DNA from: a virus
Virus record (IMG/VR): IMGVR_UViG_3300021379_001320
Location: 1 to 30,654 of that record
DNA: 30,654 bases
Direction: 5' to 3' (one strand)
A program made the position numbers and the translations under genes. The first letter of the stretch is position 1, and each line of letters begins with the position of its first letter. Shown in pieces: positions 1 through 22,600 of the stretch. The notes below the pieces were generated by a model. It did not search any database. It saw only the letters and a program-made list of their open reading frames with translations, and was not told the DNA's origin.

Positions 1-3000
1 TTGATTCCAGCACCTTCACCAGCATAGAAACTATATGCATCTCCACGAGAAGTCTCAACTGTCTCGAATGTGCCAATACCAGTGGTATAGACATTTCCTT
101 GAACATGAAGTCTCTGAGCAGGAGCATCGGTTCCAACACCCAAGAACTGAGTGTTGGTGAGTCTCATTCCTTCAACACCATCAGTATTGAATCTGATAGT
201 TCCGTCAGAACCAGAATCATCAAGAGCAATCGAAGTATCACCCTTCTGGAAAGCATCAATCTGAACAACCTGTGCTGTTAAGATACCAGCAATATTCACG
301 TTTCCAACAATATTGACTTCACCAGATCCTGCGGGATCAATATTTAAATCACCCGAAAGTGTTTCAATATTGTTTCCAGAAATCGTAACATTTCCAAACT
401 GACCACTGGTTGGTGTGATAACACTGCTATTAACACCATCGGTAATTGTCAGAGAAGAGAGTGCCTGAAGACTTGTTACCTGGTTAGTGAAGGATACTGT
501 TCCATTCTCTTGATCGACGAAGAATGCCTCACCAACTCTAAAGTCACCCTTATGATCAATACTGACATAGGAAACTTCACCATTGTTGAGTTCGGTAACT
601 TCGTTTGCTTGAATCGCAAGGTTAGGATCATTGCTGAAATCTTTTCCAGCACCGATGAAGTTGAAGTTGACTGCGAAGAATCTCAGAGTAACACCGTCAC
701 CATCAGCAACGACACCCTTCTGACCATATTCAAGAGCACAACCAACAGAACGCATGTCAGCACCAAACTGACTGAAGTCTGCAAGGGTAAGTTTGGTTGC
801 GGTTCCGATTCCACCACCAGCTTGCTCGATGCGAATGTCCTGATTGACGATGATGTCATCAGCAGTGGTGGTTACACCAGCAGCACCATCAAAGTGCAGC
901 AAGATTGATGTATCTCTATCACCTAAGAGTGCTGCAGTGGGAGCAGTAAAGTTTGTTGTATATTTACTGACATCTTTTTCAACTCTATATTCATCAATAT
1001 AACCCTTATAAGCACCTGTAGCACCGTCATATTCGGCACCAAGGACCATTGGCTTGGTGCTTCCATAGTCATTGCTGTCTGAGTAAGTAGAACCCTCTTG
1101 TGTGCCGTCAATGAACAGTTTTGTGGATGTGGATTGTCTAGAAAGAGCAATGTGATAATAGGTTCCAGTGCTCAATCCAGTGTTACCTAGGATAGCAGTT
1201 GTAGCACCTACTTGAACACCAATACTAGAACCAACAGAAACAATGTTAAGAGCAGTATCGGAATCGGAACCATCTCTTAAGTCAAAGATAGTCTTCTTGC
1301 CAGTGATTTCATCTGGTCTGATGAAGAACTCAACAGTAAAATCACCAGTTCCAAATCCAAATCCACCAGAAGTCTCAGCACTGATAGAGTCGTTTGTACC
1401 GTCAAGATACAGAGATGCAGTTCCAAATTTGGGGAAGTTGGTGGAGAGTTGTGCATCACCGTTGAAGGTCACTGCCTGGGCAGATCTATTTGAGAGAACT
1501 TCGAATCCCTCACTCTTACCAGAGATTCTGAAGTAAGTGGCATCGGCACTGGCAACAATACCAGTTGCCAGACCAGTTACACCGTCAGTATCGAAGTAGG
1601 TAACAGTATTACCAACTCCAACGTCTGTTGTAAGACCAGTTGCTCTCAGTCTTGTCTTACCATCGGATGCAAATCCAACAGAACCAGACAGACCCTCAAT
1701 ACCAGTTGCGGCAAAGTAAGAGAAGCAGTTTAGGAACTCAACTCTGGCACCGTTAGTGAAGGAAAGTGCTTTACTGTTTGGAACGATGAATGTACATTCG
1801 TTAAACAGGAATGCTGCTTCTAAGGAGTCACTAGTGCATTCGGAACCATCGATGTAGGCACCACCACCAGCAATATAAGAGGATGGTGGAGAATCTGCGG
1901 AATCGTATCCATATGGATCATCAGCAGTGATATTGCTACCAAAGTTTAGAACGGTTACTCTTTGGACATATGGAGATCTAGTTGTGATCGCAATTCCAGG
2001 AGCATATTTAAACGCATAACCCTGATTACCAGGAGTATCAAAATAGAGACCACCGATGGTAAGATCTTCGACGACCGTGCGATCATTCATCAAGAAGCAG
2101 TCCTTCTGCCTAGTGGCAGTTGTAGGCATGATCTTGGTAGCACGAAGACCAGCACCCTTAACTGTCAGACCTCTGGGAATTGTAAGTGGAAGAGTTTCCT
2201 CATAAACACCTGCGGCAATATTCAGAACATCATTCTCACCAATATCAGTGATATTTGTTAAGGCATGTCCAAGTGTTCTCCATGGTCTTTCTGGTCTATC
2301 ACCTTCGTTAGAATCACTTCCGTTTGCAGCAATGTAATAAGTATTTCCAGGAGAGAACGATGTGGAGATATTTGCGTCTTGAGGGTTCTGCCAGATTAAC
2401 TTACCACCAGAGATTGTCAGGATGGAGTTAGCAGCACCTACATTGTTGTTGCTGTCATAGATGGCAGTATCGACTCTTACAATCTCACCTGTGAGGGTTG
2501 TAGCACTGACGATACCACTTCTAAAGGTAATTGCCGTTCCTACGGTCAGAGTGTCTGTAATCGTCGCATAGGTGCCTGTCAGAGACGTTACCAGACCAGT
2601 TGTGATCTTGGCATCAAGAGAATCTAAATCTGGTACAAATGCAGAAGCAATTGTAGAGACGCCAGTAGTAATAAGATTGGCAATTGTGCCAACACCAGAG
2701 ATGAAGATATTTCTACCAGTTACCTCATCATAAACAACGTCTCCAGTGATGTTTAAGTTTCCATCAATGTAAACATCACTCTGGAATGTAGCAATACCAG
2801 TTACAGTAGAGACACCAGTAACCTGTAATTGTGGTGTTCTTGTCGTTCCAAATACAGAGATACCATAACCAGTGGTCTCAACGGTCTTGGAACCATCAAA
2901 ATAAAGTTCTGCAGAACCATCGACAGTAAATACTGCCATGGAATCATTTCCAGTTCCATTTTTCGCAATCTTGATTTCCTGATCGGAATCAATTAATAAA

Positions 3001-4166
3001 CCACCAGCTCCACCATCACGAATAATACTTCCAGCACCGTTGTGGAAAATATTGAGGTCATTATTTGTGCCAAATTCAAGAACTGAATTGTCATTCAATC
3101 TTAAATTATTACCAGCACCATCAAATGTCATGTCAGCATTGACATTGACAGAACCATTGAATGTAGAAACACCCGATACGGAAAGATTAGTAACGATGCC
3201 AGTATTAATATTGGCAGTGACAATATCTGCAGTTTCTACATCAACTACTGTTACTGTTGCATATGTACCAACTAAAGAAGTTACAACACCAGCAGTAATT
3301 TTGGCATTGAGAATATCACCATCATTGACATCAATAGTCGTGATGGTTGCACCAGTGCCAACAATATCAGTTACAGCAAGACCAGTGATGTTTGCGGAAG
3401 AAGCATCAAAAGTCTCAGTGTCAAGAGTGGTAATGGTTCCTAGACCACTATTAAAGTTGGCAATAGTACCAACACCAGTAATATTAATATTTCTACCACT
3501 TACTTCGTCATATACAATATCACCACCAACACTTAAATCACCAGCAACATAAACGTCACTGCCAAAAGTTGCAATGCCAGTGACACTAGAGGCACCAGAT
3601 ACTTGAATATCAGTTACATCAACATGTGTAACCGTTGCATATGTGCCAACTAAAGACGTTATCAGCCCAGCAGCAATATAAGCATCGGGAACACCAAGAG
3701 AGACTCCGATTGATACGGAAGAATCAAACGTACCTACTCCAGTTACAACAAACTGTCTTGCGGTAAATTCGTCAAAAGACAGGTCGCCTGTAATATCTAC
3801 GTTTCCTTCGAATACTACATCGTCCTTAAATGTAGAAATACCAGAAACAGAGAGTCCACTACCTACTTGAACTCTATCAATTAGTGAATTTCCATTTGCC
3901 GAAAGAACTTTTCTTGGCAGCAGAACACCTTCCTGAGTGAGGTCATCAGGCATCCTCTCCATGTAGTATTGACCACCTACAGGGTATGGAAGTGTGCTAA
4001 CACCAGCAGCACTACCAATGTAGAGTTTTCTGTAGGTTCCACCAGCACCAACGTTGGTGGTGTCATACACATATACTAGTTCACCATCAGTTACACCTGT
4101 ACCTACTGGTGGTAAATCAGGTAAACCAATACCTAACGTTCTTTTTAGTTTAATTTGACTTGCCAT
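1..4166 (-). CDS. Fibre-like virion structural protein with beta-helix and LamG lectin domains (partial, C-terminus outside window)
   Basis: The frame starts at ATG 4166-4164 behind a GGAGG ribosome site and stays open to the left edge (about 1388 codons), so the C-terminus is missing. It begins MASQIKLKRTLGIGLP. Residues about 150-600 are beta-rich repeats with TGVSTF/TGVGTIAN phrases. At about 610 a pectate-lyase-like beta-helix opens with YYIAANGSDSNEGDRPERPW, followed by NIAAGVYEETLPLTIPRGLT and VKGAGLRATKI. Residues about 895-1110 look like a LamG/concanavalin A fold: GTASLYLDGTNDSI, GTGDFTVEFFIRP, GTYYHIALSRQSTSTKLFID, YKGYIDEYRVEKDV, then LLHFDG. Later come GDLNIDPAGSGEVNIVG and GVGTDAPAQRLHVQGNV, typical of phage fibre shafts. 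The inferred role is a baseplate-attached fibre contacting host glycans. The fold calls rest on motifs only. The start overlaps the stop of the 73-residue gene (TGATG), suggesting translational coupling. Confidence 0.85.
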   Translation of the reverse strand, partial: MASQIKLKRTLGIGLPDLPPVGTGVTDGELVYVYDTTNVGAGGTYRKLYIGSAAGVSTLPYPVGGQYYMERMPDDLTQEGVLLPRKVLSANGNSLIDRVQVGSGLSVSGISTFKDDVVFEGNVDITGDLSFDEFTARQFVVTGVGTFDSSVSIGVSLGVPDAYIAAGLITSLVGTYATVTHVDVTDIQVSGASSVTGIATFGSDVYVAGDLSVGGDIVYDEVSGRNINITGVGTIANFNSGLGTITTLDTETFDASSANITGLAVTDIVGTGATITTIDVNDGDILNAKITAGVVTSLVGTYATVTVVDVETADIVTANINTGIVTNLSVSGVSTFNGSVNVNADMTFDGAGNNLRLNDNSVLEFGTNNDLNIFHNGAGSIIRDGGAGGLLIDSDQEIKIAKNGTGNDSMAVFTVDGSAELYFDGSKTVETTGYGISVFGTTRTPQLQVTGVSTVTGIATFQSDVYIDGNLNITGDVVYDEVTGRNIFISGVGTIANLITTGVSTIASAFVPDLDSLDAKITTGLVTSLTGTYATITDTLTVGTAITFRSGIVSATTLTGEIVRVDTAIYDSNNNVGAANSILTISGGKLIWQNPQDANISTSFSPGNTYYIAANGSDSNEGDRPERPWRTLGHALTNITDIGENDVLNIAAGVYEETLPLTIPRGLTVKGAGLRATKIMPTTATRQKDCFLMNDRTVVEDLTIGGLYFDTPGNQGYAFKYAPGIAITTRSPYVQRVTVLNFGSNITADDPYGYDSADSPPSSYIAGGGAYIDGSECTSDSLEAAFLFNECTFIVPNSKALSFTNGARVEFLNCFSYFAATGIEGLSGSVGFASDGKTRLRATGLTTDVGVGNTVTYFDTDGVTGLATGIVASADATYFRISGKSEGFEVLSNRSAQAVTFNGDAQLSTNFPKFGTASLYLDGTNDSISAETSGGFGFGTGDFTVEFFIRPDEITGKKTIFDLRDGSDSDTALNIVSVGSSIGVQVGATTAILGNTGLSTGTYYHIALSRQSTSTKLFIDGTQEGSTYSDSNDYGSTKPMVLGAEYDGATGAYKGYIDEYRVEKDVSKYTTNFTAPTAALLGDRDTSILLHFDGAAGVTTTADDIIVNQDIRIEQAGGGIGTATKLTLADFSQFGADMRSVGCALEYGQKGVVADGDGVTLRFFAVNFNFIGAGKDFSNDPNLAIQANEVTELNNGEVSYVSIDHKGDFRVGEAFFVDQENGTVSFTNQVTSLQALSSLTITDGVNSSVITPTSGQFGNVTISGNNIETLSGDLNIDPAGSGEVNIVGNVNIAGILTAQVVQIDAFQKGDTSIALDDSGSDGTIRFNTDGVEGMRLTNTQFLGVGTDAPAQRLHVQGNVYTTGIGTFETVETSRGDAYSFYAGEGAGI

Positions 4167-4757: not shown

Positions 4758-4968
4758 TACCTAATAAGTCATGAACTAATTTCTTCAGTTCTTCAACTTC
4801 TTCATGAAGACTAGAAATTTCTTGTTCTAAATTTTGTTTCTCTTCTTGTTGTTTTTTCAAAGCATTTCTTTGACGGACATATTCGATATATGCCCGTCTA
4901 TCTGTATTTACTATCGCACCACTATTTGGATCACGATAGAGATTTTGATATCCCTCTACCTTTATCAT
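4753..4968 (-). CDS. Small coiled-coil protein of unknown function
   Basis: 71 residues. The first 30 residues (MIKVEGYQNLYRDPNSGAIV) hold the pattern GYxNLYRDPNSGAIVN, which recurs in short cyanophage proteins encoded near baseplate genes. The remainder is a charged heptad-like helix (KKQQEEKQNLEQEISSLHEE and on to VEELKKLVHDLL), predicted to form a parallel coiled coil. The start ATG overlaps the stop of the 2347-residue gene as ATGA, so it is probably translated by reinitiation. No enzymatic motif is present. A role as a structural clip or assembly factor for the baseplate or tail fibre is inference from position. The gene call is firm because it fills the gap exactly. Confidence 0.75.
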   Translation of the reverse strand: MIKVEGYQNLYRDPNSGAIVNTDRRAYIEYVRQRNALKKQQEEKQNLEQEISSLHEEVEELKKLVHDLLGR

Positions 4969-7900
4969 GCCAATGCAATCGTTCTAATGTCTCTGAAGAT
5001 GGGAACCTTAGATTGATTAGTTGTAGTGGAAATAATCTTAATAACATATCCAGTGAACTGTTCAAGATTATCAGCAGTAAATTGATACTCAAGATAATCA
5101 TCAACAGTCAAACTTGGTCTAACTATTGCATCTGGATGTCCAGTGTTAGCAGCAACGTTAATTACTTCATCCCCATATCCATCACCATTTGTATCACGGA
5201 GATTCTCATATCCTGGGAAGAGTTCATATGTTTGATCAATTTCACTAGAGTCTGCCCTGACCAACTTATAAAGAACTCTAAAGTCAGATTCTGCTGGTCT
5301 ATTGGCGGTGAGAAGAACTCTCAATGAAGTAGCTGGTTGCTGAAGATCGACTTGACTAGAGATATAAATCGCAGAATGTGGATCAGTATCGTCAGAATTG
5401 ATTCTTCCATCAGTTACATAATTCAATCCTGGATTGTCAATTCTGTTTGAATAGAGTTCAATGTTGGCAAGATCCAAGTTAATGTATGGTGAGAGATAGT
5501 TCGTCTCAGTGTTCAATTGAACTCCCATTGTAAAGGACTTACTGCGTGGAAGATCAGTTGTTCTAGCATCTTCATTAACTTTAGATGCAATCAATCTTGG
5601 TGTTTCAAGTTGATTAATAGTATTGATTCCAACTGGTTCAAAACCTTGATCCAAGAAGGAAACTTCATTTCCATTAACACTTGTTCCACTAACAGTTCTG
5701 ACGTTAGCAGAAACACTAGTAAGATCACCAGGTGTTATAACTTCGAAACTTGGTGCAATGTAGTTAAATTGAACATTTTGAGTTGCCTCAGCATGGTTTC
5801 CACCAACAAGAGCATTTGTGTTAAACGAAAGTTGTGGTTCTTGATTAGCAGCATCATCCGTATCTCTATTTGATCTATCAATTTGGATGTAGTATCCATC
5901 AATAGATCTTTCAATTGAACCCATATCATGAGTCTTATTGATTCTTCTTAAAGAAACTCCGTTCAATTCATACTTCAGTGCTTGATCACCAGTCTGGTGA
6001 GCAATTGTAAGAGTATTATCTACACCTCTTTCCAGAACACCGACTGTACCGACACCCACAGAATCATAAGCAATGATCTCGTCATTGAGAACAAGGTAAC
6101 CAGTATTAGCAGCACCAACGGCAATTCCTTCAAATGTCAGTAATCCAGTTGTGCTTCCCAGAGAGATGACTTCATCATCAACACCAAGATTCGCAGATAG
6201 TGCATTTACTGGTGTATTGGGTCTAATCTTAGACAAAGTTACTTTGTTGTTGTCAGCATACATTCCGTGGTTGTAGTGATCAACAAAGAACCAAGATCCA
6301 TCATTTTCATCACCAGTCGTTACGTTGCTTGAAGTGACTTCAACGTTTGCTGCCTGAATATTTCCACTATTGTCATAGTAAGAAAGTCCAGCACCAACAA
6401 CCAGATTTTCACCCTGGACATTGGTCAAGTAAAGTGTATCAATACCCCAGAGACTATCCACAGTAATAACAGCACCGTCACCAGTTCCACCAACATCTGC
6501 GGTTGTAAGACCAACAGTGTCACCAACAACATAACCAGAACCAGAAGATGCAACAGAAACGGCAGTCACATTACTAATTCCTGAACCAACTGTAACGTTG
6601 AGTGTCAATCCACTTCCATTGCTATTGACATTGAAAGTAGAAACTGGGTTACTTGGAGTTCCATATCCACTACCACCTGTGAATACTCCAACACCACCAA
6701 CAGCAACAGATCCACCCTGCTGATCTACAAATCCAAAGTTATAAGACTTGGATGCGGAGGTTACCTTTCTACCGATTGCAAGAGTGCTAATACCAGATGC
6801 ACCAGTCGCATAGGTTTCAATACCAACGGTCAGTCTTCTTGGATAGGTTTCAATTGGATCCTCTCCAAGTTCTCTGCTTCCAGAGTTACTGGTATCAAGT
6901 TTTGGATTGTAGAAATATGCCTGTCCAGAATTTGACGTGAAATCAGCACGATATAACTTAAATGTCATATCTTCATATTGATTAGCAGTCCAAATAGACC
7001 CGTTCTGAGACAAGAACAACGATCCCATAGAATACTGAGTTGCATAGACAACACCAGTAGCAGCAGGAAGATCACTGGAGTTAACTGTCTTCTTGCCCAT
7101 TTCTGCAACCCACACTTCATACTGATCTGTGTCAGCAAGAAGAACTACAGCATATTCTCTATTTGGTTCAAGATAAATTGGGGATGGGAACTTGATATTC
7201 GTAGCAACAGAAGCATTAGATGATGTTGTAATATCCTCTGGTTTTACCAATACTCTTGCATATGGAGCAACCAAATCTGTGGTTGGTGTGCCAAGTGACA
7301 TGGTACGAAGTTGAACTTCGCAAGGAATGTTTCCAGGATCTTTATTGGCAAAGAATACATCCAAAGATGTAATAAATGCACCTTCTTTTTCCACAAGGAA
7401 AGATTGTGCCAGGGGATCATAGAAACGAACTGATACTCTCTGTCTAGTAATAACACGTCCATTTGCAGTGTATTGCGTGGCTGCACTGGAAATTAACTTA
7501 CTTCCAGGAAGTGGTTCTGCGTTAGTGGCACTGGTTGTCAGTTTATATTCTTTGGTTCCTGTGGTGATTCTGACAGTTGGAGCAGGTCTTGCTAATGGAT
7601 TGCTGAGGAAGAAAGATCCAATGAGATCACCACCATTGTCGGCAATCAATCTGAGATTTGACAGAGTTGCCTGAGCACCACTATTAAGACCTCTAAATCT
7701 ACAACCAATCTCAACACGTCCATAGTGAGCACCTTGAGCCTGTGCGGCAAGTGCAAAGGTATCTACGTTTAATACTGTGGATGCAAGAGAATACTGGGTT
7801 GGGAGAGTAGTTGTGTTGTCGTAGGGGTTAATTGTATAAGAAACAGATGGTGTCGCAAATGCTCCTGATTTGTGATCAGGTCTTGCAAGTCTGAATCTGA

Positions 7901-10900
7901 TAATATCTACACCATCAACGGAACCAACTACAGTTTCACCAACTTGGAATACACCAGTTACACCCTCAACTTCAAGAAGTTTTGGAACAAAATCAACACC
8001 ACCATTTCCATCAAGGAATTGATAATATCTTCCATATGGTTTATTACCAACACTGCGGAACTCTACGTTCCTAGATCTCATAAATCTATCTGCTACGTTA
8101 GATACGACTCTGACACTAGACGACCCAGAACCTGCTCTTCTTGGGTTGGGTATGTTGATCGATACAGAAGGAGCCCAAAGATTTCTTACCCAGAAATCAG
8201 ATTTTGGATTGAGATCAACACTTCCGTTGTAAAGAACAACGTTAAATGGGTTTACATTTTCTACCTTAGTAGCATGTGGCTGACTCAAATATTGAACTTC
8301 ATTGTATTTCAGTGTAATTAAACGACCAGTTTTTTGAACGTTGGAGTCCAAAAGATCAAAATCTACACTCAAATCCAATTCGGCATTTGGAACACTTGCA
8401 TCGGACGCAAGGAGAGCATTCAAAGTTATCGCATCTCTAAATGGTCTGAGTTCATTATTTTCTGGAAGCATCACAGATCTAGGATCAATGAAATCACCAT
8501 TTCTAAAGTTATCTACAAAGAATCCAGACTTAAATCTCGACAGTCCAGTTGCATCTCTAACTTGCAGAGATTGTGTCTCAACTTCAAGAAGATTGAGTGA
8601 AGTTACTTCCTCCAAATCTTCAATCCTATCTTCAAGTTGTCCGATATCACGCATGGTGTATCTTCTGTTATCTTCCATTGTGATGGTTACTTCATCAATA
8701 TCGAAGATATAAGCAGAAAGAGACAGTGTTGCAATTAGCATCACATCACCAACTTTTTCTGGTGGTTTTGGATCTCTATCAGGAACTCCCTCAACATAAG
8801 CAAAGTTACCAAGTTTATCCAGATAAAGTCTATCAATTCTTGGTGGATAGAAATTATATCCAATTACAGAACTCTCATTTGCTGCGAGAAGAAGTTTTGG
8901 TTGATCGGTAAATACTCTCGATTTAAAATCAAATGGGGAAGCAGTGGCAGAAACTGGATCATACACATCAACTCTAGGTCTAAAGTCTAAAGTATCCGAT
9001 GCTCTCTTCCGTTGTGGACCAATATTGGGAATATCTTTAGCAAATCTTTCATCATCGTAACTATCGACAGTGAAGATATCACCTTCATCATTAGATGGAA
9101 CTGTATAATGATCATAAACAACATACAGTTTTCTATTTGGTTCAGCATACCCATCATTTCTGACTAATCGGGCATAATCATAGTATTGATTTTTCTGACC
9201 CTTATCTAAAGTAAATCTATTTGTTACGTCAGAATATCTTCCAGCAGTCGTTGACTGAATCTGTGCGATAACATTAGACTCTTGGAAAAGAACAGTCTCT
9301 TGGAAAGAGAATCTGTTTTCATTTAGATAAACAAAAGTAACTTGGTTTGCTGCTTTTGTTACTACTTTAGCAATAGTTCCAGAACTACTTCCAATCAGAT
9401 TTTCTCCTAAGATAACACTATCGTTAATATCAGCATTAGCAAAGAAGTTGAGAGTGTCAAGAGTTACTGAATTTTCGTCGATTGCTTGATATACGGCAAA
9501 AATATTAGCAACATCTGGATAATTTAAACAAATTTCTTTGTCCTGGACTCTTGTTCCATAGAAAATACTCTTTGTTAGTCCATCATTAATGCTGTTGTTT
9601 GGATCAGTTCCAGAATTGCTATACTTGGATCTGGTGATCTCAAGAGTTCTGACTCTATTATAAACTTTCTGTTTGTTTTGAATGGCAGTTTTTCTAACCG
9701 TAGCAATTACATTTACGTTAGACTGACTTGTTCTTAATCCGTTAAATGTAACTACATTAGAAGAAATTGTTACATTACCATCACGAAGTGGTTCAACGTC
9801 ACCGTCACTATAGATGATAGAGTATCTTTCTTCATCAAAAGCTTCAAACAAGATGTCAGTAAGACCAGTGACATCAGCAACAGAAAGTGTAAGAACACCA
9901 CTAGCATTTGTGGTTTTGCCAGTTACCTCTACAACTGCTTTAACATCAGATCCAGTAAAATCTACAGTTGCAATGTTCCCATCGTCCAGGGAAGCATAAA
10001 GGAATCCCTGCTCCTCATTTCTAATTGTAGCTCTACCACGTTTAAATTGAGTTGTGGTTGTTGAGGATGGGAGTGTTCCATCACATACTCCAGGAATGCT
10101 GCTTACTGCAGCAAGGTTCATTACAAGACCATTCGCAGTAACAGAACTTACTCTATTAAATGTCGGTACAGATTGCGTACTCTTTTGATATCTAATAATA
10201 TCACCAACTTTAATATTAGCAAAATTATTACCAGCAGATGTTGTGATTCCAGTTGGATTAATACTGATAGTATCTACTAAACTAAATCCAGAGGGAACAT
10301 CAAAGTCTAGAGATGCGTCTGCTTTAAAATCAGTACTGTATCCAGACACAGCACTAGTGTCTTGATATACCATTTTAATGTCACCAGAACCAAACTGTTT
10401 GACATTATTGACAGTTCTTGGTGTAGTAGTGATTCCATTAATAGAAATAGACTCACCCTGGATAAAAGAACCTGCAGTTTGTCTCACATAAACCTGAGAA
10501 GATCCTGATCCAACTGTTGTTGCATATCCAGTTGCACCACTACTCAGACCTCTAATAAAAGCAGTATCTGGAAGTTCACCCGCACTTAGATTCTGATTGA
10601 ATTCTAGTCTTGTATATGTTTGAACATCATACAGATAGCAATCATAAATTGTAGAATTTGGTTCCTCAGTGTCGACCTGCGCTTCTGGTTTTACTGTATA
10701 GACTCTTGCCTCACCAATCTGGGTTCCGTTTGGTCCCGCACCATTATTTTTTCTATTATCGTAGAGTTGAACCGCAGATGTAAATTGTGGAATACCACTG
10801 ACATTGTTAAGCTTGAGAAGATTGCCCATCTCAAAATCAACGGCAGAAGCCTTAACTTCTTTGGTTGCTCTTGTTTTGTTAACGTCTAAAATCGTAGTGC

Positions 10901-12008
10901 CATTCTTTCTTACATCATAACCTCTGACATAGGCAACACCAGGACCTACTTTAAGACAAGCAAGATCATCATTAGGAGTTCTCCCTTGAGATGTTGATTG
11001 ATTGGAAAAGTAAAGACCATCATTACCAAGTCTATCGTTTAGAGAATTGAACATACCAAGTTCAAAATCCTCTACAGAGTAGTCACCAGACTCATCATAG
11101 GTTCTCTCAGCAAGATAATCACGAATAATATTATATTGGGTATTCTTGATAATTTTTCTGATAATGCCAGTTTCGACTCTTAAAAGTTCAATAAAATTGA
11201 CATCTGTTGTATCGGTGATACTCTTTTTACCAAGGACCAATTCAATTTTTAATCTATCCGCACCTGGTGCAGTGTAATTGGAGAATCCTTTGGCATTATC
11301 ATAAAGAGTCGCATCATTTTTTGCCGTAGCAATAGTCTCATTAATGATTAAACCAACTCTATAAGATGGTTGATTAGTATATTGATCTAAAAGAATTGTT
11401 TGCTTATCTACCCTGACAAATGTTCCTCTAAGGAACATGATGCCCTCACCAATATGAGCAGCAGAACCAATAGAAGTAGCATTTTCTGCAATGCATGTAG
11501 CAAATGTATTGCCAGTAGGAATTGTTGTATTTCCGTAATCTACTGCTTCTAGAGTTTCTAAATTTTCACCATCACTAAAAGATGAAATTGCATTATTTGT
11601 GTTACCAGAATCAATGTACTTTACATAAAGAGTTACATTATTTCTCTCGGACTGACTCTGAGAAAGCACGAATTGAACTTGTGCTGTAACACCAGACTCT
11701 TGCCCAACAATTCTCTTCCCTACAAAATTATCAATATAAACACTTACATCCGTTCCCAAGTGAGAAGAATTAACTTCTACCGCATAAAATTGATCGTCAT
11801 ATGTTACATTGCCAGGAATGACAATAGAACCCTCTTTGAAAATATGACTGCCAAAACTTTCTAGTTGATTCTGTAAAATTGACTGGAGAGTTGTTAATTC
11901 TCTTGCCTGAATTGGGAACCCAGGTTTGAAAAGCACACGATAATAATCCTTGAGAGGATCAAAATCGTCATAGTAAGGATTGACGTTGAGATTAGTCTGT
12001 TGTGGCAT
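4965..12008 (-). CDS. Giant DUF4815 virion structural protein (baseplate periphery)
   Basis: 2347 residues. The N-terminus carries the DUF4815 signature YYDDFDPLKDYYRVLFKPGF followed by PIQARELTTLQSILQNQLES (residues about 12-54), known from T4-like cyanophage structural proteins. A short coiled coil (IGQLEDRIEDLEEVTSLNLL) lies near 1120-1150. Residues about 1780-1835 hold two GSGY beta repeats. Residues about 1965-1995 hold a YLVLNDEIIAYDS...LERG module that also occurs in the 4521-residue protein. Near the C-terminus DTNGDGYGDE (D2272) resembles a calcium loop. The protein ends KVPIFRDIRTIALA. It lies four bases after gp8, where T4 has gp9 and gp10, so an outer-wedge or fibre-attachment role is likely, but no T4 homology is visible to me. 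It is far larger than T4 gp10 (about 600 residues). Confidence 0.88.
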   Translation of the reverse strand: MPQQTNLNVNPYYDDFDPLKDYYRVLFKPGFPIQARELTTLQSILQNQLESFGSHIFKEGSIVIPGNVTYDDQFYAVEVNSSHLGTDVSVYIDNFVGKRIVGQESGVTAQVQFVLSQSQSERNNVTLYVKYIDSGNTNNAISSFSDGENLETLEAVDYGNTTIPTGNTFATCIAENATSIGSAAHIGEGIMFLRGTFVRVDKQTILLDQYTNQPSYRVGLIINETIATAKNDATLYDNAKGFSNYTAPGADRLKIELVLGKKSITDTTDVNFIELLRVETGIIRKIIKNTQYNIIRDYLAERTYDESGDYSVEDFELGMFNSLNDRLGNDGLYFSNQSTSQGRTPNDDLACLKVGPGVAYVRGYDVRKNGTTILDVNKTRATKEVKASAVDFEMGNLLKLNNVSGIPQFTSAVQLYDNRKNNGAGPNGTQIGEARVYTVKPEAQVDTEEPNSTIYDCYLYDVQTYTRLEFNQNLSAGELPDTAFIRGLSSGATGYATTVGSGSSQVYVRQTAGSFIQGESISINGITTTPRTVNNVKQFGSGDIKMVYQDTSAVSGYSTDFKADASLDFDVPSGFSLVDTISINPTGITTSAGNNFANIKVGDIIRYQKSTQSVPTFNRVSSVTANGLVMNLAAVSSIPGVCDGTLPSSTTTTQFKRGRATIRNEEQGFLYASLDDGNIATVDFTGSDVKAVVEVTGKTTNASGVLTLSVADVTGLTDILFEAFDEERYSIIYSDGDVEPLRDGNVTISSNVVTFNGLRTSQSNVNVIATVRKTAIQNKQKVYNRVRTLEITRSKYSNSGTDPNNSINDGLTKSIFYGTRVQDKEICLNYPDVANIFAVYQAIDENSVTLDTLNFFANADINDSVILGENLIGSSSGTIAKVVTKAANQVTFVYLNENRFSFQETVLFQESNVIAQIQSTTAGRYSDVTNRFTLDKGQKNQYYDYARLVRNDGYAEPNRKLYVVYDHYTVPSNDEGDIFTVDSYDDERFAKDIPNIGPQRKRASDTLDFRPRVDVYDPVSATASPFDFKSRVFTDQPKLLLAANESSVIGYNFYPPRIDRLYLDKLGNFAYVEGVPDRDPKPPEKVGDVMLIATLSLSAYIFDIDEVTITMEDNRRYTMRDIGQLEDRIEDLEEVTSLNLLEVETQSLQVRDATGLSRFKSGFFVDNFRNGDFIDPRSVMLPENNELRPFRDAITLNALLASDASVPNAELDLSVDFDLLDSNVQKTGRLITLKYNEVQYLSQPHATKVENVNPFNVVLYNGSVDLNPKSDFWVRNLWAPSVSINIPNPRRAGSGSSSVRVVSNVADRFMRSRNVEFRSVGNKPYGRYYQFLDGNGGVDFVPKLLEVEGVTGVFQVGETVVGSVDGVDIIRFRLARPDHKSGAFATPSVSYTINPYDNTTTLPTQYSLASTVLNVDTFALAAQAQGAHYGRVEIGCRFRGLNSGAQATLSNLRLIADNGGDLIGSFFLSNPLARPAPTVRITTGTKEYKLTTSATNAEPLPGSKLISSAATQYTANGRVITRQRVSVRFYDPLAQSFLVEKEGAFITSLDVFFANKDPGNIPCEVQLRTMSLGTPTTDLVAPYARVLVKPEDITTSSNASVATNIKFPSPIYLEPNREYAVVLLADTDQYEVWVAEMGKKTVNSSDLPAATGVVYATQYSMGSLFLSQNGSIWTANQYEDMTFKLYRADFTSNSGQAYFYNPKLDTSNSGSRELGEDPIETYPRRLTVGIETYATGASGISTLAIGRKVTSASKSYNFGFVDQQGGSVAVGGVGVFTGGSGYGTPSNPVSTFNVNSNGSGLTLNVTVGSGISNVTAVSVASSGSGYVVGDTVGLTTADVGGTGDGAVITVDSLWGIDTLYLTNVQGENLVVGAGLSYYDNSGNIQAANVEVTSSNVTTGDENDGSWFFVDHYNHGMYADNNKVTLSKIRPNTPVNALSANLGVDDEVISLGSTTGLLTFEGIAVGAANTGYLVLNDEIIAYDSVGVGTVGVLERGVDNTLTIAHQTGDQALKYELNGVSLRRINKTHDMGSIERSIDGYYIQIDRSNRDTDDAANQEPQLSFNTNALVGGNHAEATQNVQFNYIAPSFEVITPGDLTSVSANVRTVSGTSVNGNEVSFLDQGFEPVGINTINQLETPRLIASKVNEDARTTDLPRSKSFTMGVQLNTETNYLSPYINLDLANIELYSNRIDNPGLNYVTDGRINSDDTDPHSAIYISSQVDLQQPATSLRVLLTANRPAESDFRVLYKLVRADSSEIDQTYELFPGYENLRDTNGDGYGDEVINVAANTGHPDAIVRPSLTVDDYLEYQFTADNLEQFTGYVIKIISTTTNQSKVPIFRDIRTIALA

Positions 12009-13634: not shown

Positions 13635-16600
13635 TTACTGTTTTCTCAGAGCACCAGTACCTCTGAGTCCAATGTTTCTTCTTTGGAACGTTGGATAAGT
13701 AGTTAATCCAACTTCAAAGGCATTGCCATCAACAGAAACTGAGATTGGATTATCATTTCTAGTAATACCAGAAATTCTTCCCCAAGAGATTCTTCCTGCT
13801 GGTTCAAAATAAGTTCCAGTTGTGGCAATACCAACAATATTGGTATCTGGATCAACTTGACATGTCATAATTCCAACCGTGCCACTGAACTGAGTATAGT
13901 ATGCCTCATAGATGTTATCGAGTTTGTCTGTAGAAACACCAATCACATTTGTTGTTCCGATTCCAACAGAAGTTGCGGATCCAACTAATGTGGTGAGACC
14001 AGTTCCAACACCAGTGTCATATACCAGAACTCTATAACCCTGAAGCAATTGCTGCCTCTCAGCAAGAGTTGGGACATCTTGAAGATCCAACTCAAAGGTG
14101 AGTCCAAGACCAGCTGGTGGAATGCTGAAGTGGTATTGAGATCCGACTCCTGCATTATTGAGAATGTATGCTCTTTCACCGTTTGGTTTTGTGGTCATGG
14201 AAATTGTTGCTCCTGCACCAACACTCAATGGTGATGTGGTAGCAACACCTACGGTAGTTACATCGTAAGGTGTAGATAATGTATATTCAATGATTTTCTC
14301 ACTGTCACCACCAAGAACAATCATCTGAGTTCCATCTGTGCTCATAACAAAGTCAGATGGTGCAGCATCGTCTGTCAGTGCTTGACTACTACCAAAGGAA
14401 ACACTAGTAATATCAAAGGCACTAGACATATCATACTTGTAAAGTGCTGGTGACGATGGTGAAATTGTAATGATGGCAGCTCCAGTATCAACGACTTGCA
14501 AACCTCTGTGGGACTGAGTTTGGTTAGCAACTGTTGTTTGTGTGGAAACACCTGCAAGTGTATCACTGGTCAAATCCCAAGCAACAGAGAGATCAATCTG
14601 GTTCAGTTGAGTAACGAATGGTGCTTGAGCACCTCTGCCAAGGGTGTAAAGTTTAGTACCATCATCACGGAAATATAGATCATAAATTTGTGTAACCTGA
14701 GTGCTGATTCCAAGTTGATTACTGTTATTAACTGTTGCCGTCTCAATTTCAAATGCAGTGGAAAGTGTCCATTCGGTAATTGTTAAAGTGTTTTGATCAG
14801 CAACATACAATCTAGTTCCATCTGGTTTGAAGAAAATTGCTCTAAGATCATTCTTTGATCCATCAATGAGACTTAATCCCTTTCTATAGATTGTCTTCGA
14901 AACATCATATGGATAAAATTCTTCCAGTCTTGCAAAAGACGTTTGGATACCAGTGATAACACCAGCATAACCTCTGACCTCGGTATCAATAATTCCAGAA
15001 ACTAGTTCTGTTGGAACAGTTGTTGTAGATCCAATACCAGCAGTAGAGAATCCAGAAATAACTAATCCACCGAAATTGGTATCTGGATCACCAGTTGGAT
15101 CTACACCAAGGAACAATGAAGTATCTTCAACAAAAATTTCAGTATCTGATGTTGTAATATCTTTGAGAACTTTTGCTGTTGGGTAGATTTGAGCCTCAAT
15201 AGAATCTCTTCCCTTAGAAATCAATTCACCACCAAGGAATCTATCAACTTTTTGTTTTGTCCAACCAATTGGTTTTGGTTCAGTTGTACTTACACCATCA
15301 CCTCTGTACAGAGATGTTTCAATTTCACTGGAGGATTTGATTCCAACAATGATACGGCTACTTTCTTGAGAAAGGTTGTCAAAAGTCAGAGTCGCATCAT
15401 TTTTTTCAATAAGTGGTGTTCTCTTCATGAAAATATCATCACCAACTTTAATAGTTTCTGTAATATTGTTTAAGAAACTATCTGCCGCAGAACCTCTGTA
15501 GAAATAGATTGAAATTTTATCTTCTGGTGCTGGTGGTTCTGCAAATGTAATTGAAGTGCCGCCATAAAACTCATATGCCTCACCAGGTTCCTGCAAAATT
15601 CCATTTATGAACACAATCAGAAGATATTCAAGATCAATAGCAGCAGAATCTGGATCATTCTTATCAGTTTCAAAACTAATCAGTTGATCATTATAGGAAA
15701 GTGGGAATCTGGTTCTAGATCCATCTTGGAAGATACTGATATCATCAATATAATCCATTTCACCAAACTGCCATGCTGAGAATTCATCCTCAAAAGTATC
15801 ATCAATTGTAATTTGGAATTCGTTGAAATTCTGACCAGCATTGGGATCAGTTGTCATTCCCAAGACTCTTACAACATCACCTCTTCTGAATGAATATCCC
15901 ACTTTAGTGATATCAAATTTTTGAACCTCAAATAAAGTTGCTCCGACTCCAGTTTGTACCACACCACCAGTTCCAGCAGTGTATAAGTAAGTTCCAGCAG
16001 TGGCAGCAGCACCGATATTTACTGTGAAACTATTCTCATCAATGAATTGCAGAACTGTATAATCATAACTTACATCCGTGTAGGGGAAGATAGTTCCTCC
16101 AGATCCAACTGGTGCATTTGGTGAAAACTGGAGATTGTTCAATTGAACAATATCACCAGTGGTAAATCCATGTCCGACAGCACTTACGGTAGAAAGTCCA
16201 GTGGTGTCATCGTATAGGAAATTGACAATTGGTTTGGAGTTAAATGAGGTGTTAATTCCCAATACGCCGACAGTGACTGACATTCCAATACCAGTTACTG
16301 TTGTTGTTCCAACAGACAGTCTGGAAACACCTTCTACAACCAGATTATCATAACGGGGTTCTTCAATACTAATCGTTGGATTTGTATATCCACTACCAGC
16401 ATTCGTAATGCTGAATGCCAATGTTCCACCAGCACCAACAGTTGCTGAAATTTCTGCAACCGTTCCAGTGTGACCATCCTCAAAAACGGTAATATCGGGA
16501 GCACTGATAGTAGAATAACCACTACCAAAATCTGCGTTAGTCCATTTTGCGAATGTACCACCACTATTATATGTGTGGGCAAATGTAACTACACCTACTT

Positions 16601-19600
16601 GAGTTTCAAATTTAGTATCGGAAAGAATTCTTGTGGCATAATATGGACCAACACCTTTTACTTCAAAAGCATTTCCAGCACTAGATCCAGAACCAACATA
16701 AGTGTGTTCAATTGTTGAAACACCAACATTAACTAAGAATTTGTTTGTTCCTGCAATGCCAAGAATTGGATACTTGTTGATATCCACAGCCTTTCTTCCA
16801 GAACTACCATCTGGGAAGATAGAAGTTGTAATACCACCGTGTGGAGTGGAGCAAGCAAACCCAATATTGGAAAGATGTACCAGTCTACCAACTCTAAAGT
16901 TATGTGCGGACGTTAAACCAACAGTAGCAAGTCCAGTTCTGTTATCATAAACAAAGGAACTAATTTCAAAGTTTACGCCTTGTGCCGATGGGAAATTGTA
17001 GTTGTTAGCAAACGGAGCACCAGATGGACAAGTGAAATTGAGATTCTTAAGTTCAATTTTATCTCCAGTATTCAATTCATGATCAACAGATGAAGTTACC
17101 GTAAGAATGCCAGTTGTATTATCATATGCTGCATCAGAAATTGCTAAGAATGTACCAGTAGTTGGAACACCAGTAATTGAATTGATTTGACCTAAGACAA
17201 CAGATACTTCTGGTGTGGAAGGACGCAATGGTGCATATCCTAGACCATTTGTAGATGCGAAAGAAATCGGAACACCACCTCTTGGCAGTTGGTTGAGGTT
17301 GATATCACTTTGATTAATAATTTGAGTTCCACCTACAGATGTAATACCAGTAAATATTACACTGCTGATCCCAGCTACTTCAGTAATCTCGAAATTGTTA
17401 TCAGTGTTGTTTGGTGTTGATGGTGGTTGGAAAACACCGTTAATAAACAAGAGACCATTTCCACCTGTAGTTCCGATGCCAGTTACATTACTGCCACCAG
17501 AGGTGAGTGTAAAGTCAGATGTGACACCATCAAACTGATCAGATATATCATCAAATATGAGATTTGATTCATAATCTTTTCTGAAATATACTCTACCAGA
17601 GAAATTAGATCTTGGAATTGTCAAACCTCTAGCATCAAGATCTTGCCTACCAGCACCCATAGGTGCTTGAGTAAAGTTAATTTTACTGTCAGTAATATCA
17701 TATGCTCCCCTATAAACAGAAACAGAATCAAACTGACTATGTGAAGTAGAAATAGATCCTACAAAACCACGATCGACTTCTACAATAGGTAAAGTTCCAA
17801 TAGAACCAACACCATCAGTGTTGGTAGATCCAAGTCCAACAATATTGACTCGCATATACTCATCATTCACTTTAATCAAATCTGCTGGTCTAATGGATGA
17901 GATTCCAGAGAGTTGAATAATTGTTGTCCCAGCTCCAATTGCCTGCATTGTTTGCTCAGACAATGGTGTTTTAGAAATGGGTGACTGGACAATACCATCA
18001 ATTGTGATAATTGCCTTTTCATTTCTCTTTGCCATCGCAAGAACATGTTTGTTTCCAGATCCAAAGTCACTGAAAGATACCCCAGTTCCAGCAGCTGCAG
18101 CAGTAGTTGTTATAGCAACTTTAAATTGTGAAGAATTAATTCTAATAGCATAAACACTTTCTGGAAGTCTTGCAGTTCCAACGCCAGTGTTATAAACAAG
18201 ACCTGTTGCACCGACACCAATTAAGTTAGAACCAGGTCTATATTGAAGTTCTTCACCAGTTTGGAAGAAATGCTCGACAGTAAAAATGCCAGTTGTTGTG
18301 CTAAGAAGACCTGCTGTTGCTGGATCAAAAGTCTTAGCAAAAATATCAACTCCATTATGTTTAGCATCAAATTGTAGAATCTCTCTTTGATTAATTCCAT
18401 AATAAACTGACTGGGAAACATTATTGTTTACATCACCATATGAAAGATCACCAATACCTTGAATATCACCATTATTATCGAGATCTCTATAGATAATTTC
18501 ACTAAAAGACTGAACCTGAATATCACCACTATAATCTGGGTGGAACTTTAGATCTACTCCAGAGGCAGTGTATTCTGCTGAGAAAGTACCAATACCATTA
18601 ACATCATTCGCAGTAAAATATGGATAACTGAGAACATAAAGGTTCTCTCTTGTTTTTTGATCATTCAATACATAAACCTGATGTAAGGCTTGAGTCTCCC
18701 CAATACTTACTCTAACCGTGGATTTGAATGATCCATCAGTGATGCTGTTAATACCAACAATAGCAGTGGGAGTTCCACCAGTTACTTCAGTGAATTTAGA
18801 TTCAATTCTTCCAGTTCTCTCTGTTCCAGTATCTGTTCCAGTGAGTGCATATCTGTAAGTTCCAATACCAGCAGCTGTAGTTCCAATACCGATGGTTTGG
18901 GTTCTCAATCTTACACCATTAGATCCATTGTTGTTATAAACAAGGCTTACAACACCAGAATCAATGGAAGATGTGAAAGATCCAATAAATGGTCCAGAGA
19001 GACCATTTAAACCAACTCTAGTATTGAAAGCTGCTATCTCAGTTAAATACGAGTCTGTGCCATTATGGGAAAGAACTAATTCGAAATATTCTGCAGCATT
19101 TTCCAACTCATCAAAGACTTCTACGCTAGTGTAGAAAGTATCTGTTGTTGAGGTACTAAATCCAAGAACAGTTGTTCCGACTCCAGCATTAATGTCTAAG
19201 GTTTTGGAAATTAAGTCAATAAATCCAATACTTTGAGATCCAATTCCAGCAGAATCATCATCGAAGAAAGTCTGGAGAAGTTTAACTTCATAATCAGTAT
19301 TAAAGGATTCATTAGGTGAGAATCTCAGAGAATACTGATTGGTATCTTCATTGAAGAACCCATCAAGTTCACCAATTGTTTCACCAAGACCAACTTTTTC
19401 AAGAAGGAAAGTATCTTGATTGTTGCCAATCATTACAATTTCCTTAAGACTCATTTCAGAGTCGTTAGTAACATCTACAAGTTGAACTAAAAACTTGTTA
19501 GTTTTTCTACCATCAGTAAACAGTGCTGTATCTATGAAACTGAGAAGTTCATTAGAATCCTCATTCAAGAACTGACTGCTGATGTCATCGATTCCAATAA

Positions 19601-22600
19601 CTCTGTTTGACTTATTAAGAATAAAATCTACAACTTCTACATTGATGAACTCAATTGATTTTGAAGTATTTGTAGTTGCATCGACATCAAGTACAAAATC
19701 AAAGTCATTAATTGTATCAACTCTCTTAGCACCATCAAATACATCCAGAACTAAGAATGGTTCTTCCTGTGCGGTTGTGAAAGAAAGACCAACATTTCCT
19801 TTTGGACTAATTTGAGTGTCTGCAAAATTCTTATATCCAGATGGATGTACGTTATCATTTACAAAACTAATAATATCATCAAATGGTTTTTCACTCTGAA
19901 TAGAGTAAGACATTCTTTGGAAATAATCATTATCTCCTGTGACTTGGAAATCTTCACTCAGTTTTCCAATATCATCGTTCCAACCTGTATTGAAAACAGA
20001 GGTAGAATCGATTTTAAAACTACCAACTTTGGAAGAAATATCTGTGATCGTGCATTTTGCACCACTTACAGATCCCGTTAAAGTGTCACCATTTTTAATT
20101 GGTGTTGTTCCAGTTACATTCAACTTCCCTGTTAAAGCATTGAAACTACTAACAACAAGATCAGTTGTTCCAACCAAAATAATATCATTTAGATATAAAA
20201 ACTCACCCTCAACAAATAGTGAGGTTTGCTTATTAACAACAAATTCTGGAACATCTTCTTTTTTAACAACATTAGCAAAAAGTCCAGGGGTTGTTACAGC
20301 AATTCCTGTATTAGTCCCTGCAGGAACCAGACTACTCAAATCATAGGTGAGTTTGTTGGGGTTAACACTAGAATCATATCCAGTAACAGTAAAGAATTGA
20401 TATCCATGATCAGAAGAATTATGACCTTCTCCAATTGTTGATGCCAACCCAATGCCTTCAACAAAAAATTCATCACCAACTTTAAATGGTGCTGTGGTAA
20501 ATCCAAGAATAGGTGTGGAAAGACTTAAAGTAACTTGATTGTCCGTGCTAGATGCAACACTGACAATAGAAATTCCATTATCATTATTAACTGCTACAGC
20601 ACGATACACAACATCATTTTTTAATCCTACTGGATTTCTATCGATTCTAATACCAGCAGTTTCCACACCACCTACTAGTGTAGTTGCACTGACTGCATTT
20701 CCAGAAAGTTCCGTAGAACCTTGGAAATCAGATACCTCAGAATCAGATGATGGGTCATATAGGACAACTCCAGGTGCTGTCAAATAATTTTTACCACTAC
20801 TAATCACAGTGATAGAAGAAAGTGTTTCAAAATCAGAAACAGTTAATTCGTCTGGAACACTAGCAGTTGGTGTAAGTGTTTTATCGGATGGATATGAGAA
20901 ACCAGGGGTCAGCAGTCTTACTGTTTCAAGTTTTCCGATATTATCGGAATTTAATCTCAGTAAAGCATCAGATCCATAATCGGAAGTGATACTAGAAATG
21001 TTAGGAACTGTTTTGTATCCAATTCCCTCAAAAATAATTTTTACACTATCAATAGCACCAGTTGCAGTTGTAGATGTGGTTGTATAAGTGATAGAATCGC
21101 ATTCATCATCAGTATAAGATGATTTTTCTACCTCTTCGGAAAGATTAATGTCAAAAGTTGTGCTTGTGATTCCTGTAACATTAAAAGTTCCATTATACTT
21201 GCTGTTTTCATATCTAATTTCATTATATCCTGTTACATCAGTATCCGAAGTGCTAATGAATCCACCATTATCAAGATTATAGTAAAGAATATCTGGTAAC
21301 CCAGAAGAGAAACTCAAGGTCAGAGCAGCTCCGACATTTCCATTAGTTCCAGAAGAAGAAACTAGGAAATTAGTTGTTTGACCTGTAGATACCAGTGGAT
21401 TGTCAAATTCATCATCATAATAGATTTTTAAGTTGTATCCAGAAAGAGTTGGATCTTCTAAGTTAAAAACTAGATCGTTATTTCTAAAAACATTGAGTGG
21501 TGGATTTACCAAAGAAAGTGTTTGATCTGTTCCACCAACGGAAGTTAGATTAACAAAAATTGGGGGAGATGAAACGGCATCTTTTTTAGTTTCGGTAAAT
21601 CTGAAATTATCCTTATCAATCACAAAGACATAATATGAACCAGTAGAAAGTCCACCAATAACTTCACTATTAGACTCATAATATACTTTATCACCAGTAA
21701 AATATTGGTGATCTGTTTTATTAACAATATTAGTAGATGTATTAACTCCAGCAGAGCTAATTGCTACTGGATTTACAAGTATCTTTTGCTCAACTACTTT
21801 GAGAGAAACAGAAGATCCAGCACCAACACCAGTACTAAAACCAGGATTTACGGAGAGTTGAATTACATCATTATTTGAAAGACCATGTGTTTCACCAGTT
21901 GAAACTGTTGCTGTAATTTTCTTAACGTCAGCAGTTACTTGATCATAATTACTTTCGAATTTGTAATCATACAAATTCATGTACTGAACATCACGGAAAA
22001 ATACTTTATCACCATTCAGAACAGTCGCAATACCAATGGTATCTTTAGATGTCTTGATGGCATAAACAGAACTTGGTAAAGTAAAGATATTTCCTGTAGA
22101 ACTAGTCGAAACACCAATAGAAGTAGTTCCAAGACCAACAGAGTATGAAATAAGTTGGTTAGTTACGAATGGATGATCCTCAAGGAAAATATTCTGAGTG
22201 AGAATACTTCTTTCTGTTGTAATGCCATTAAATTGATAAGATCTTACAGTAGAGAATCCAACAGTAATTCCAATACCAACTTGTTCAAATGGATTAAAGA
22301 AAATTTCGTCTTGTTCTCTAGACTCAAAATATGGTGTTTCAACAGCAATTGTAAATCTTTGTGGAGAATATGATACACTTTCTGTTGCGGTATGTGCAAC
22401 TCCACCACCAGCAGTTTCTGATGGGAATCTTTGAACTCTAATTACACCATCAGCATTAAATTGATTCAATACACCAAAAGTTTCATTTGATATTCTGAGA
22501 GAACTACCAATAGAAACTGGCATTACAGTCACTTGGATATCAGTGGTCATTCCACTAACACCTGTTGTTCCCATTCCAACTACGAGTTTTCCTGTTGGTA

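Follow-up and report, generated by a model that had tools for sequence, protein, structure and literature searches.

A LamG-type domain inserted in the predicted beta-helix of a T4-like cyanophage fiber: a putative accessory adhesion module subject to loss and allele exchange

What does a concanavalin-like domain do in a fiber gene that lies among the baseplate genes of a cyanophage, and does it decide which hosts the phage can use? The question is raised by a virus record of 30,654 nucleotides (30.7 kb; IMG/VR IMGVR_UViG_3300021379_001320), all of which was analyzed and is here called the window. Its minus strand carries the baseplate region of a T4-like cyanophage in the order gp25, gp6, a 4521-aa protein (P0003), gp8, VrlC/DUF4815 (P0001), a small fiber-assembly-type protein (P0006) and the fiber gene P0007 (Table 1). 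A first-pass annotation, made from the sequence, had described a fiber next to the baseplate, and the gene order fits this, as gp25, gp6, the 4521-aa protein, gp8 and VrlC/DUF4815 all lie upstream. P0007 is incomplete, its 3' end being cut by the window edge, and the frames of close relatives run to about 1676-1976 aa. Two of its neighbors have counterparts in phage P-HM1: P0006 matches PHM1_091 at 39% and P0001 matches the 'VrlC protein' PHM1_089 at 35%. The frame of gp8 (P0002, 12288-13595, minus strand) has an aberrant tail past about residue 390, and plausible sequence continues in another frame from gp8 to about 12008, at the next gene; this is a frameshift, perhaps from an assembly or sequencing error.

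Table 1. Coordinates in the window of the fiber gene P0007, its parts and its neighbors
Feature	Coordinates	Strand	Basis or remark
P0007, fiber/tailspike-like virion protein	3..4166	-	ORF, 1388 aa, start codon at 4166
P0007 N-terminal repeat region, residues 1-605	2352..4166	-	Repeated self-like matches among relatives
P0007 predicted beta-helix, first part, residues 606-894	1485..2351	-	AlphaFold model; tailspike/lyase matches
P0007 LamG_3/concanavalin-A-like insert, residues ~895-1108	843..1484 (831-1490 in wider bounds)	-	PF13385; model; PDB matches; empty site in DSL-LC03
P0007 predicted beta-helix, second part, residues 1109-1262	381..842	-	Abuts first part in LamG-less relatives; one model with first part
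P0006, small fiber-assembly-type protein, directly upstream of P0007	4387..4725	-	phrog_3304 'L-shaped tail fiber protein assembly', E 2.3e-29
P0001, VrlC/DUF4815, upstream neighbor, marks start of fiber region	4965..12008	-	PF16075, E 7.7e-57
P0003, 4521 aa, between gp6 and gp8	13635-27200	-	YHYH domain PF14240, residues 1250-1352, E 2e-25

The names attached to this gene family point to a baseplate wedge protein. P0007 matched PHROG 1469 'baseplate wedge subunit' with 1018 bits, and its homologs in ACG-2014f, P-HM1 and MED4-213 (approximately 40-45% identity), of which those inspected (L021-L024, L033) carry a LamG in the same position, are labeled 'baseplate wedge initiator' (gp7). This label stems from PHROG and GenBank names; P0007 gave no match to gp7 in Pfam and is encoded after gp8 and VrlC, whereas in both the window and P-HM1 another giant protein directly precedes gp8 and the gene of this family follows VrlC. 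Residues 1-605 matched no family in a Pfam profile search, and NCBIfam assigned none to P0007 or to two relatives. The region downstream of VrlC has been described as a host recognition cluster, and concanavalin A domains have already been noted in the structural operon (both in PMC7029224); on the strength of those descriptions the LamG of P0007 belongs to a kind of module already known. Its frequent loss from one site and the exchange of its alleles through tandem fiber genes are the unusual features, and a search of the open-access literature found no description of LamG presence/absence or allele exchange in cyanophage fibers. Structural and tail/baseplate genes do mutate in cyanophage evolution experiments, the passages in point of PMC9910659 and PMC6224464 leaving LamG unnamed.

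The domain had been annotated as LamG_3 at positions 835-1490, that is residues 893-1111, which agrees closely with the bounds of the insert as drawn against a LamG-less relative, and the peptides quoted in support are present in the P0007 translation. The assignment was borne out by a profile search, in which PF13385 (Laminin_G_3) matched residues 922-1063 (E 1.8e-16) with 61.1 bits, far above the curated cut-off of 27.6, and positions 1-141 of the 151 in the family model were covered, placing the domain in the family. A six-frame search of the record returned this as the single match (975-1403, minus strand, E 3.2e-20). A model predicted for the domain from 35 sequences (pLDDT 92.5, pTM 0.90) is all-beta save three residues and shows a two-sheet antiparallel beta-sandwich. 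The best 1000 Foldseek chains of the PDB were rescored against this model, with matches within 1 Z of each other treated as ties, and 838 of them reached a Z of at least 8. Among the best were PAPP-A residues 13-216, a LamG-type domain (Z 18.8, rmsd 2.5, 179 aligned), domain 4 of AbnA, an arabinanase (Z 18.6, rmsd 2.4, 174 aligned), the pentraxin domain of PTX3 (Z 17.7) and the CBA120 tailspike TSP2 (Z 17.5, rmsd 3.0, 198 aligned). Clostridial neurotoxins and their partner proteins also matched, through their receptor-binding parts and at lower Z; we attribute this to a shared broad fold and claim no kinship. Among predicted viral structures the top matches were the homologs from Prochlorococcus phage MED4-213 and ACG-2014f. 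A sequence search of the PDB gave nothing meaningful (one match to the domain, at E 0.24, and none to the whole of P0007 at 0.01) and the fold claim therefore rests on Pfam and structure comparison; taken together, the PF13385 scores, the confident model and the structural matches rule out a chance match or misread fold. Compared with PF13385 at large (ConA-like lectin/glucanase superfamily), the domain of the window differs in being inserted within the beta-helix of a phage fiber and in containing no Trp.

A monomer AlphaFold model of residues 606-1262 (pLDDT 85.6, pTM 0.66) matched rhamnogalacturonan lyase 5olq (Z 20.7, 253 aligned) and the phage tailspikes 6c72 and 8iq5 (Z 18.8 and 18.6), and its beta-helix matches (Z 17-21) span model residues ~2 to ~620, hence both flanks of the LamG. 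P0007 is accordingly predicted to contain the parallel beta-helix of the tailspike class, and from the model we take the LamG to be an insert of ~210 residues between two parts of a single such helix. A close parallel is with CBA120, whose TSP2 and TSP4 also combine a beta-helix with a beta-sandwich akin to carbohydrate-binding proteins (the helix of P0007 matched TSP4 at Z 17.9). In TSP2, however, the sandwich that matched lies at the C-terminal end (residues 690-921), whereas that of the window lies within the helix and is missing in many relatives.

We favor, by a modest measure, the possibility that the LamG is an accessory surface-binding (adhesion) module on a tailspike-like fiber. P0007 would be a receptor-binding-type fiber of a T4-like cyanophage, organized around a tailspike-like parallel beta-helix, and the LamG would be mounted on its side between the two helix parts. 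In that position its most likely ligand is a cyanobacterial surface component, either a glycan or a glycoprotein, and the domain would add affinity or specificity to what is recognized by the helix and the remaining fiber.

The predicted helix can close without the LamG, so that the module can be lost. In Synechococcus phage DSL-LC03 the fiber aligns to window residues 606-899 and then from residue 1109, so that the two halves abut without a LamG, and a PF13385 search of the complete DSL-LC03 record gave no match; nor was there one in L107, L108 and L111, three LamG-less sequences that are all fragments. For a census, the helix, the LamG and a LamG-less helix each served as query against viral contigs (best 80 per query), phage records were added, and the sequences were scored with one profile per helix part and one for the LamG; this census replaced a smaller set of 90 distinct sequences (78 with and 12 without LamG). 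Among the 117 distinct helix sequences obtained from the best 80 per query, the LamG was at the site in 88 and absent in 29, a ratio that is not a natural frequency because each search contributed its best 80 and the LamG query finds LamG-bearing loci by construction. For sequences found with the helix queries, again the best 80 per query, the corresponding figures were 58 and 23 of 81 distinct. The flanks were 7-13 residues apart in 23 of the 29 LamG-less sequences, and the helix parts touched or overlapped in the remaining six.

A helix tree was built from 114 of the 117 sequences (three were too short) and the window, 115 in all, with the LamG columns removed; like all trees in this study it was a quick one with SH-aLRT support only. 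LamG presence required five gains or losses on this tree, at least four of them forced by branches with SH-aLRT of at least 95. A single LamG-less clade was rejected (AU p 6e-46). By eye, the LamG tree, which like the other LamG trees carries long-branch warnings, broadly parallels the helix tree, and for this reason the simpler reading is that the ancestor had a LamG which was then lost repeatedly. We also observed that a 94-kb contig (IMGVR_UViG_3300023084_000009) carries three LamG-less beta-helix fiber genes of the P0007 family (L190, L192 and L200), and that the related frame L107 has collagen-like repeats (PF01391).

Where present, the domain is maintained, as indicated by purifying selection. 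In the 10 pairs formed by the window and four close relatives (five of six close sequences, L043 having been excluded for its different length), dN/dS in the LamG segments was 0.00-0.17, and a search for positive selection in these five sequences gave no value above 0.25 in any segment compared. Over 73 LamG-bearing sequences, mean pairwise identity was 0.49 in the LamG core (residues 951-1062) versus 0.60-0.66 in the helix parts; this gap arises at intermediate distance and is absent among near-identical sequences. One LamG allele of ACG-2014f was 98.8-100% identical across all 40 records bearing it, which counts against arms-race behavior at short range. A scan of genome contigs with the window domain found two relatives, at 31-32% identity, in MAGs of Burkholderiaceae and Paceibacterota, and none titled cyanobacterial. 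As a single-domain query reaches close relatives only, we claim no origin for the domain.

Replacement of one LamG by another can be followed in the ACG-2014f isolates. Syn7803C29 has three consecutive fiber genes (260, 261 and 262) with a LamG in 260 and in 262; the two LamG regions share approximately 50-65% DNA identity over most bins, and the two alleles are 44% identical in the core. When 41 isolates were scored by BLAST, with four RefSeq duplicates excluded, 26 had both alleles, 11 had that of 260 only, 3 had that of 262 only and 1 had neither, so that at least one allele was missing in 15. Five of these fifteen were examined at the gene level: (i) C7 has one long fiber gene, C7_264, that fits C29 gene 260 to nt 1832 and gene 262 from nt 1839 (4001/4010 informative sites); (ii) US34 likewise has one, US34_271, that switches from 260 to 262 at 2841/2851 (3999/4005 informative sites); (iii) in US4, 260 is joined to 262 with the frame broken, the LamG of 262 being kept on a separate ORF; (iv) C25 has lost most of 260; and (v) in C9, 260 is joined, at a point before its LamG, to the far end of 262, with both LamGs lost and the frame broken. 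A PF13385 search found no match in the whole C9 record and one each in US4, C25, US34 and C7. Because the junction precedes the LamG in C7 and follows it in US34, these two phages keep different alleles. The other ten '260 only' isolates are known by BLAST, and as several retain parts of 261, their rearrangements differ. The locus in KJ019155 (L033, 32212-45699) is a deletion-prone fiber locus, with genes fused or deleted in the five examined and broken frames in two.

Recent duplication was rejected as the source of the two LamG genes, since 260 and 262 are ~50-65% identical whereas the two single-gene forms match one or the other parent at mostly 98-100% identity. Collapse of repeats during assembly was also judged unlikely: the parents share just 6 and 9 identical bases at the junctions and assembly had been done with word lengths of 51-71 (PMC5112629). 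C7 carries 12 extra bases at its junction. C7 and US34 are thus junctions of tandem paralogs, that is, allele replacement in deposited genomes as judged from their sequences. Since tandem fiber genes share helix motifs on either side of the LamG, recombination can swap LamG alleles, and selection may favor such exchange. It is possible, if on balance doubtful, that the LamG is a mobile adhesion cassette of cyanomyoviruses for which one conserved helix site is repeatedly emptied, refilled or given new alleles by recombination between tandem fiber genes at short, conserved motifs of the helix, with further trade with a giant virion gene. Were this so, a phage population could slowly switch its surface binding, with a reserve of paralogs that collapses to one when selection changes.

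The giant gene in question also bears on the strongest alternative to an adhesion module, namely that the LamG packs against neighboring fibers or baseplate proteins and stabilizes or orients the fiber without contacting the host. LamG domains often bind proteins. In S-RIM12, S-RIM2, ACG-2014a, ACG-2014d and QB2 a related LamG is found in a giant protein encoded just upstream of the gp9/gp8 genes, which by position would be a baseplate component. These giant proteins (compare phrog_701) are different from P0007 in having one to three LamG copies and no match to its type of beta-helix, and their LamGs are 35-46% identical to that of the window; in S-RIM12 a single frame of 6376 aa gives three matches, of which one scores under the family cut-off. 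P0003, the counterpart in the window, matches the S-RIM12 giant in pieces (24-37% identity), and both six-frame and protein searches with PF13385 found no LamG in it. One example points to movement of the domain between the two genes: the viral contig locus L163 is 88 and 81% identical to L175 in the helix parts and 61% in the LamG, its LamG is 68% identical to the giant-type LamG of L155 and 67% to that of L171, but 51% to those of two other giant-type loci, L170 and L156, and it groups with the giant type at SH-aLRT 99 (94 in the first LamG tree). A structural role would suit these relatives in a putative baseplate protein, the protein binding known for LamG domains and the strong purifying selection. 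Yet absence from 29 of the 117 distinct relatives in the census (best 80 per query), with the helix kept, and the swap, inside a single phage group, for an allele that is 44% identical are both easier to reconcile with an exposed module, and we regard a purely structural role as rather unlikely.

The first-pass annotation had proposed a glycan-binding domain as a candidate determinant of host range against cyanobacterial surface sugars. The invariance among relatives that would speak against this was not found, in that the domain varies or is absent, and its identity to each of the 362 matching phage records is below 60%; variation does not, however, track the isolation host. PMC5112629 describes 142 cyanophages that had Synechococcus WH7803 as isolation host, went through three rounds of plaque purification and were propagated on WH7803, and all KJ019 records used here fall in the accession ranges given there. 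One host strain thus yielded four LamG states among the 41 ACG-2014f isolates, and, if the deposited assemblies are right, WH7803 supports the growth of phages whether they carry both LamG alleles, a single one or none. On the same proviso the LamG is not the sole determinant for WH7803 and seems dispensable on at least this host, bearing in mind that C9, whose fiber frame is also broken, would show that the whole LamG-bearing fiber is dispensable on WH7803 rather than the domain alone. The same report tested 138 isolates on 15 Synechococcus strains and describes host range over these strains as corresponding little with lineage. A quantitative role, or a role on other hosts, is compatible with the ACG-2014f pattern.

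With respect to sugar binding, the fold is common to sugar-binding or putatively sugar-binding domains such as AbnA domain 4 and BACOVA_03559, and CBA120 TSP2, which has been named the specificity determinant of its phage, has a carbohydrate-binding-like beta-sandwich (D4) beside its helix. AbnA domain 4, the nearest solved match known to bind sugar, is described as doing so through pi interactions of a Trp-rich sheet (PMC9110388), whereas the window domain lacks Trp altogether. The differing LamG sets of isolates from one strain, the complete DSL-LC03 record in which PF13385 finds nothing and a LamG tree that by eye follows the helix tree all argue against a lectin as main determinant of host range, which we consider improbable. 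For the question of which parts of the virion govern host range in marine T4-like cyanophages, ACG-2014f offers a ready natural panel of related phages on one host with both, either or neither LamG allele.

Equally improbable is that the helix is an active polysaccharide depolymerase for which the LamG serves as carbohydrate-binding module, since its resemblance to polysaccharide lyases, epimerases and phage depolymerases is one of fold alone at low identity (10-15%), no Pfam enzyme family was matched in the helix, and beta-helices without enzyme activity occur in fibers. We also observed two beta-helix genes with stretches of ~366 and 124 residues inserted elsewhere in the helix (L161, 2760-6386, and L180, 3574-6372, respectively), and the helix may therefore be able to accept several kinds of plug-in domain.
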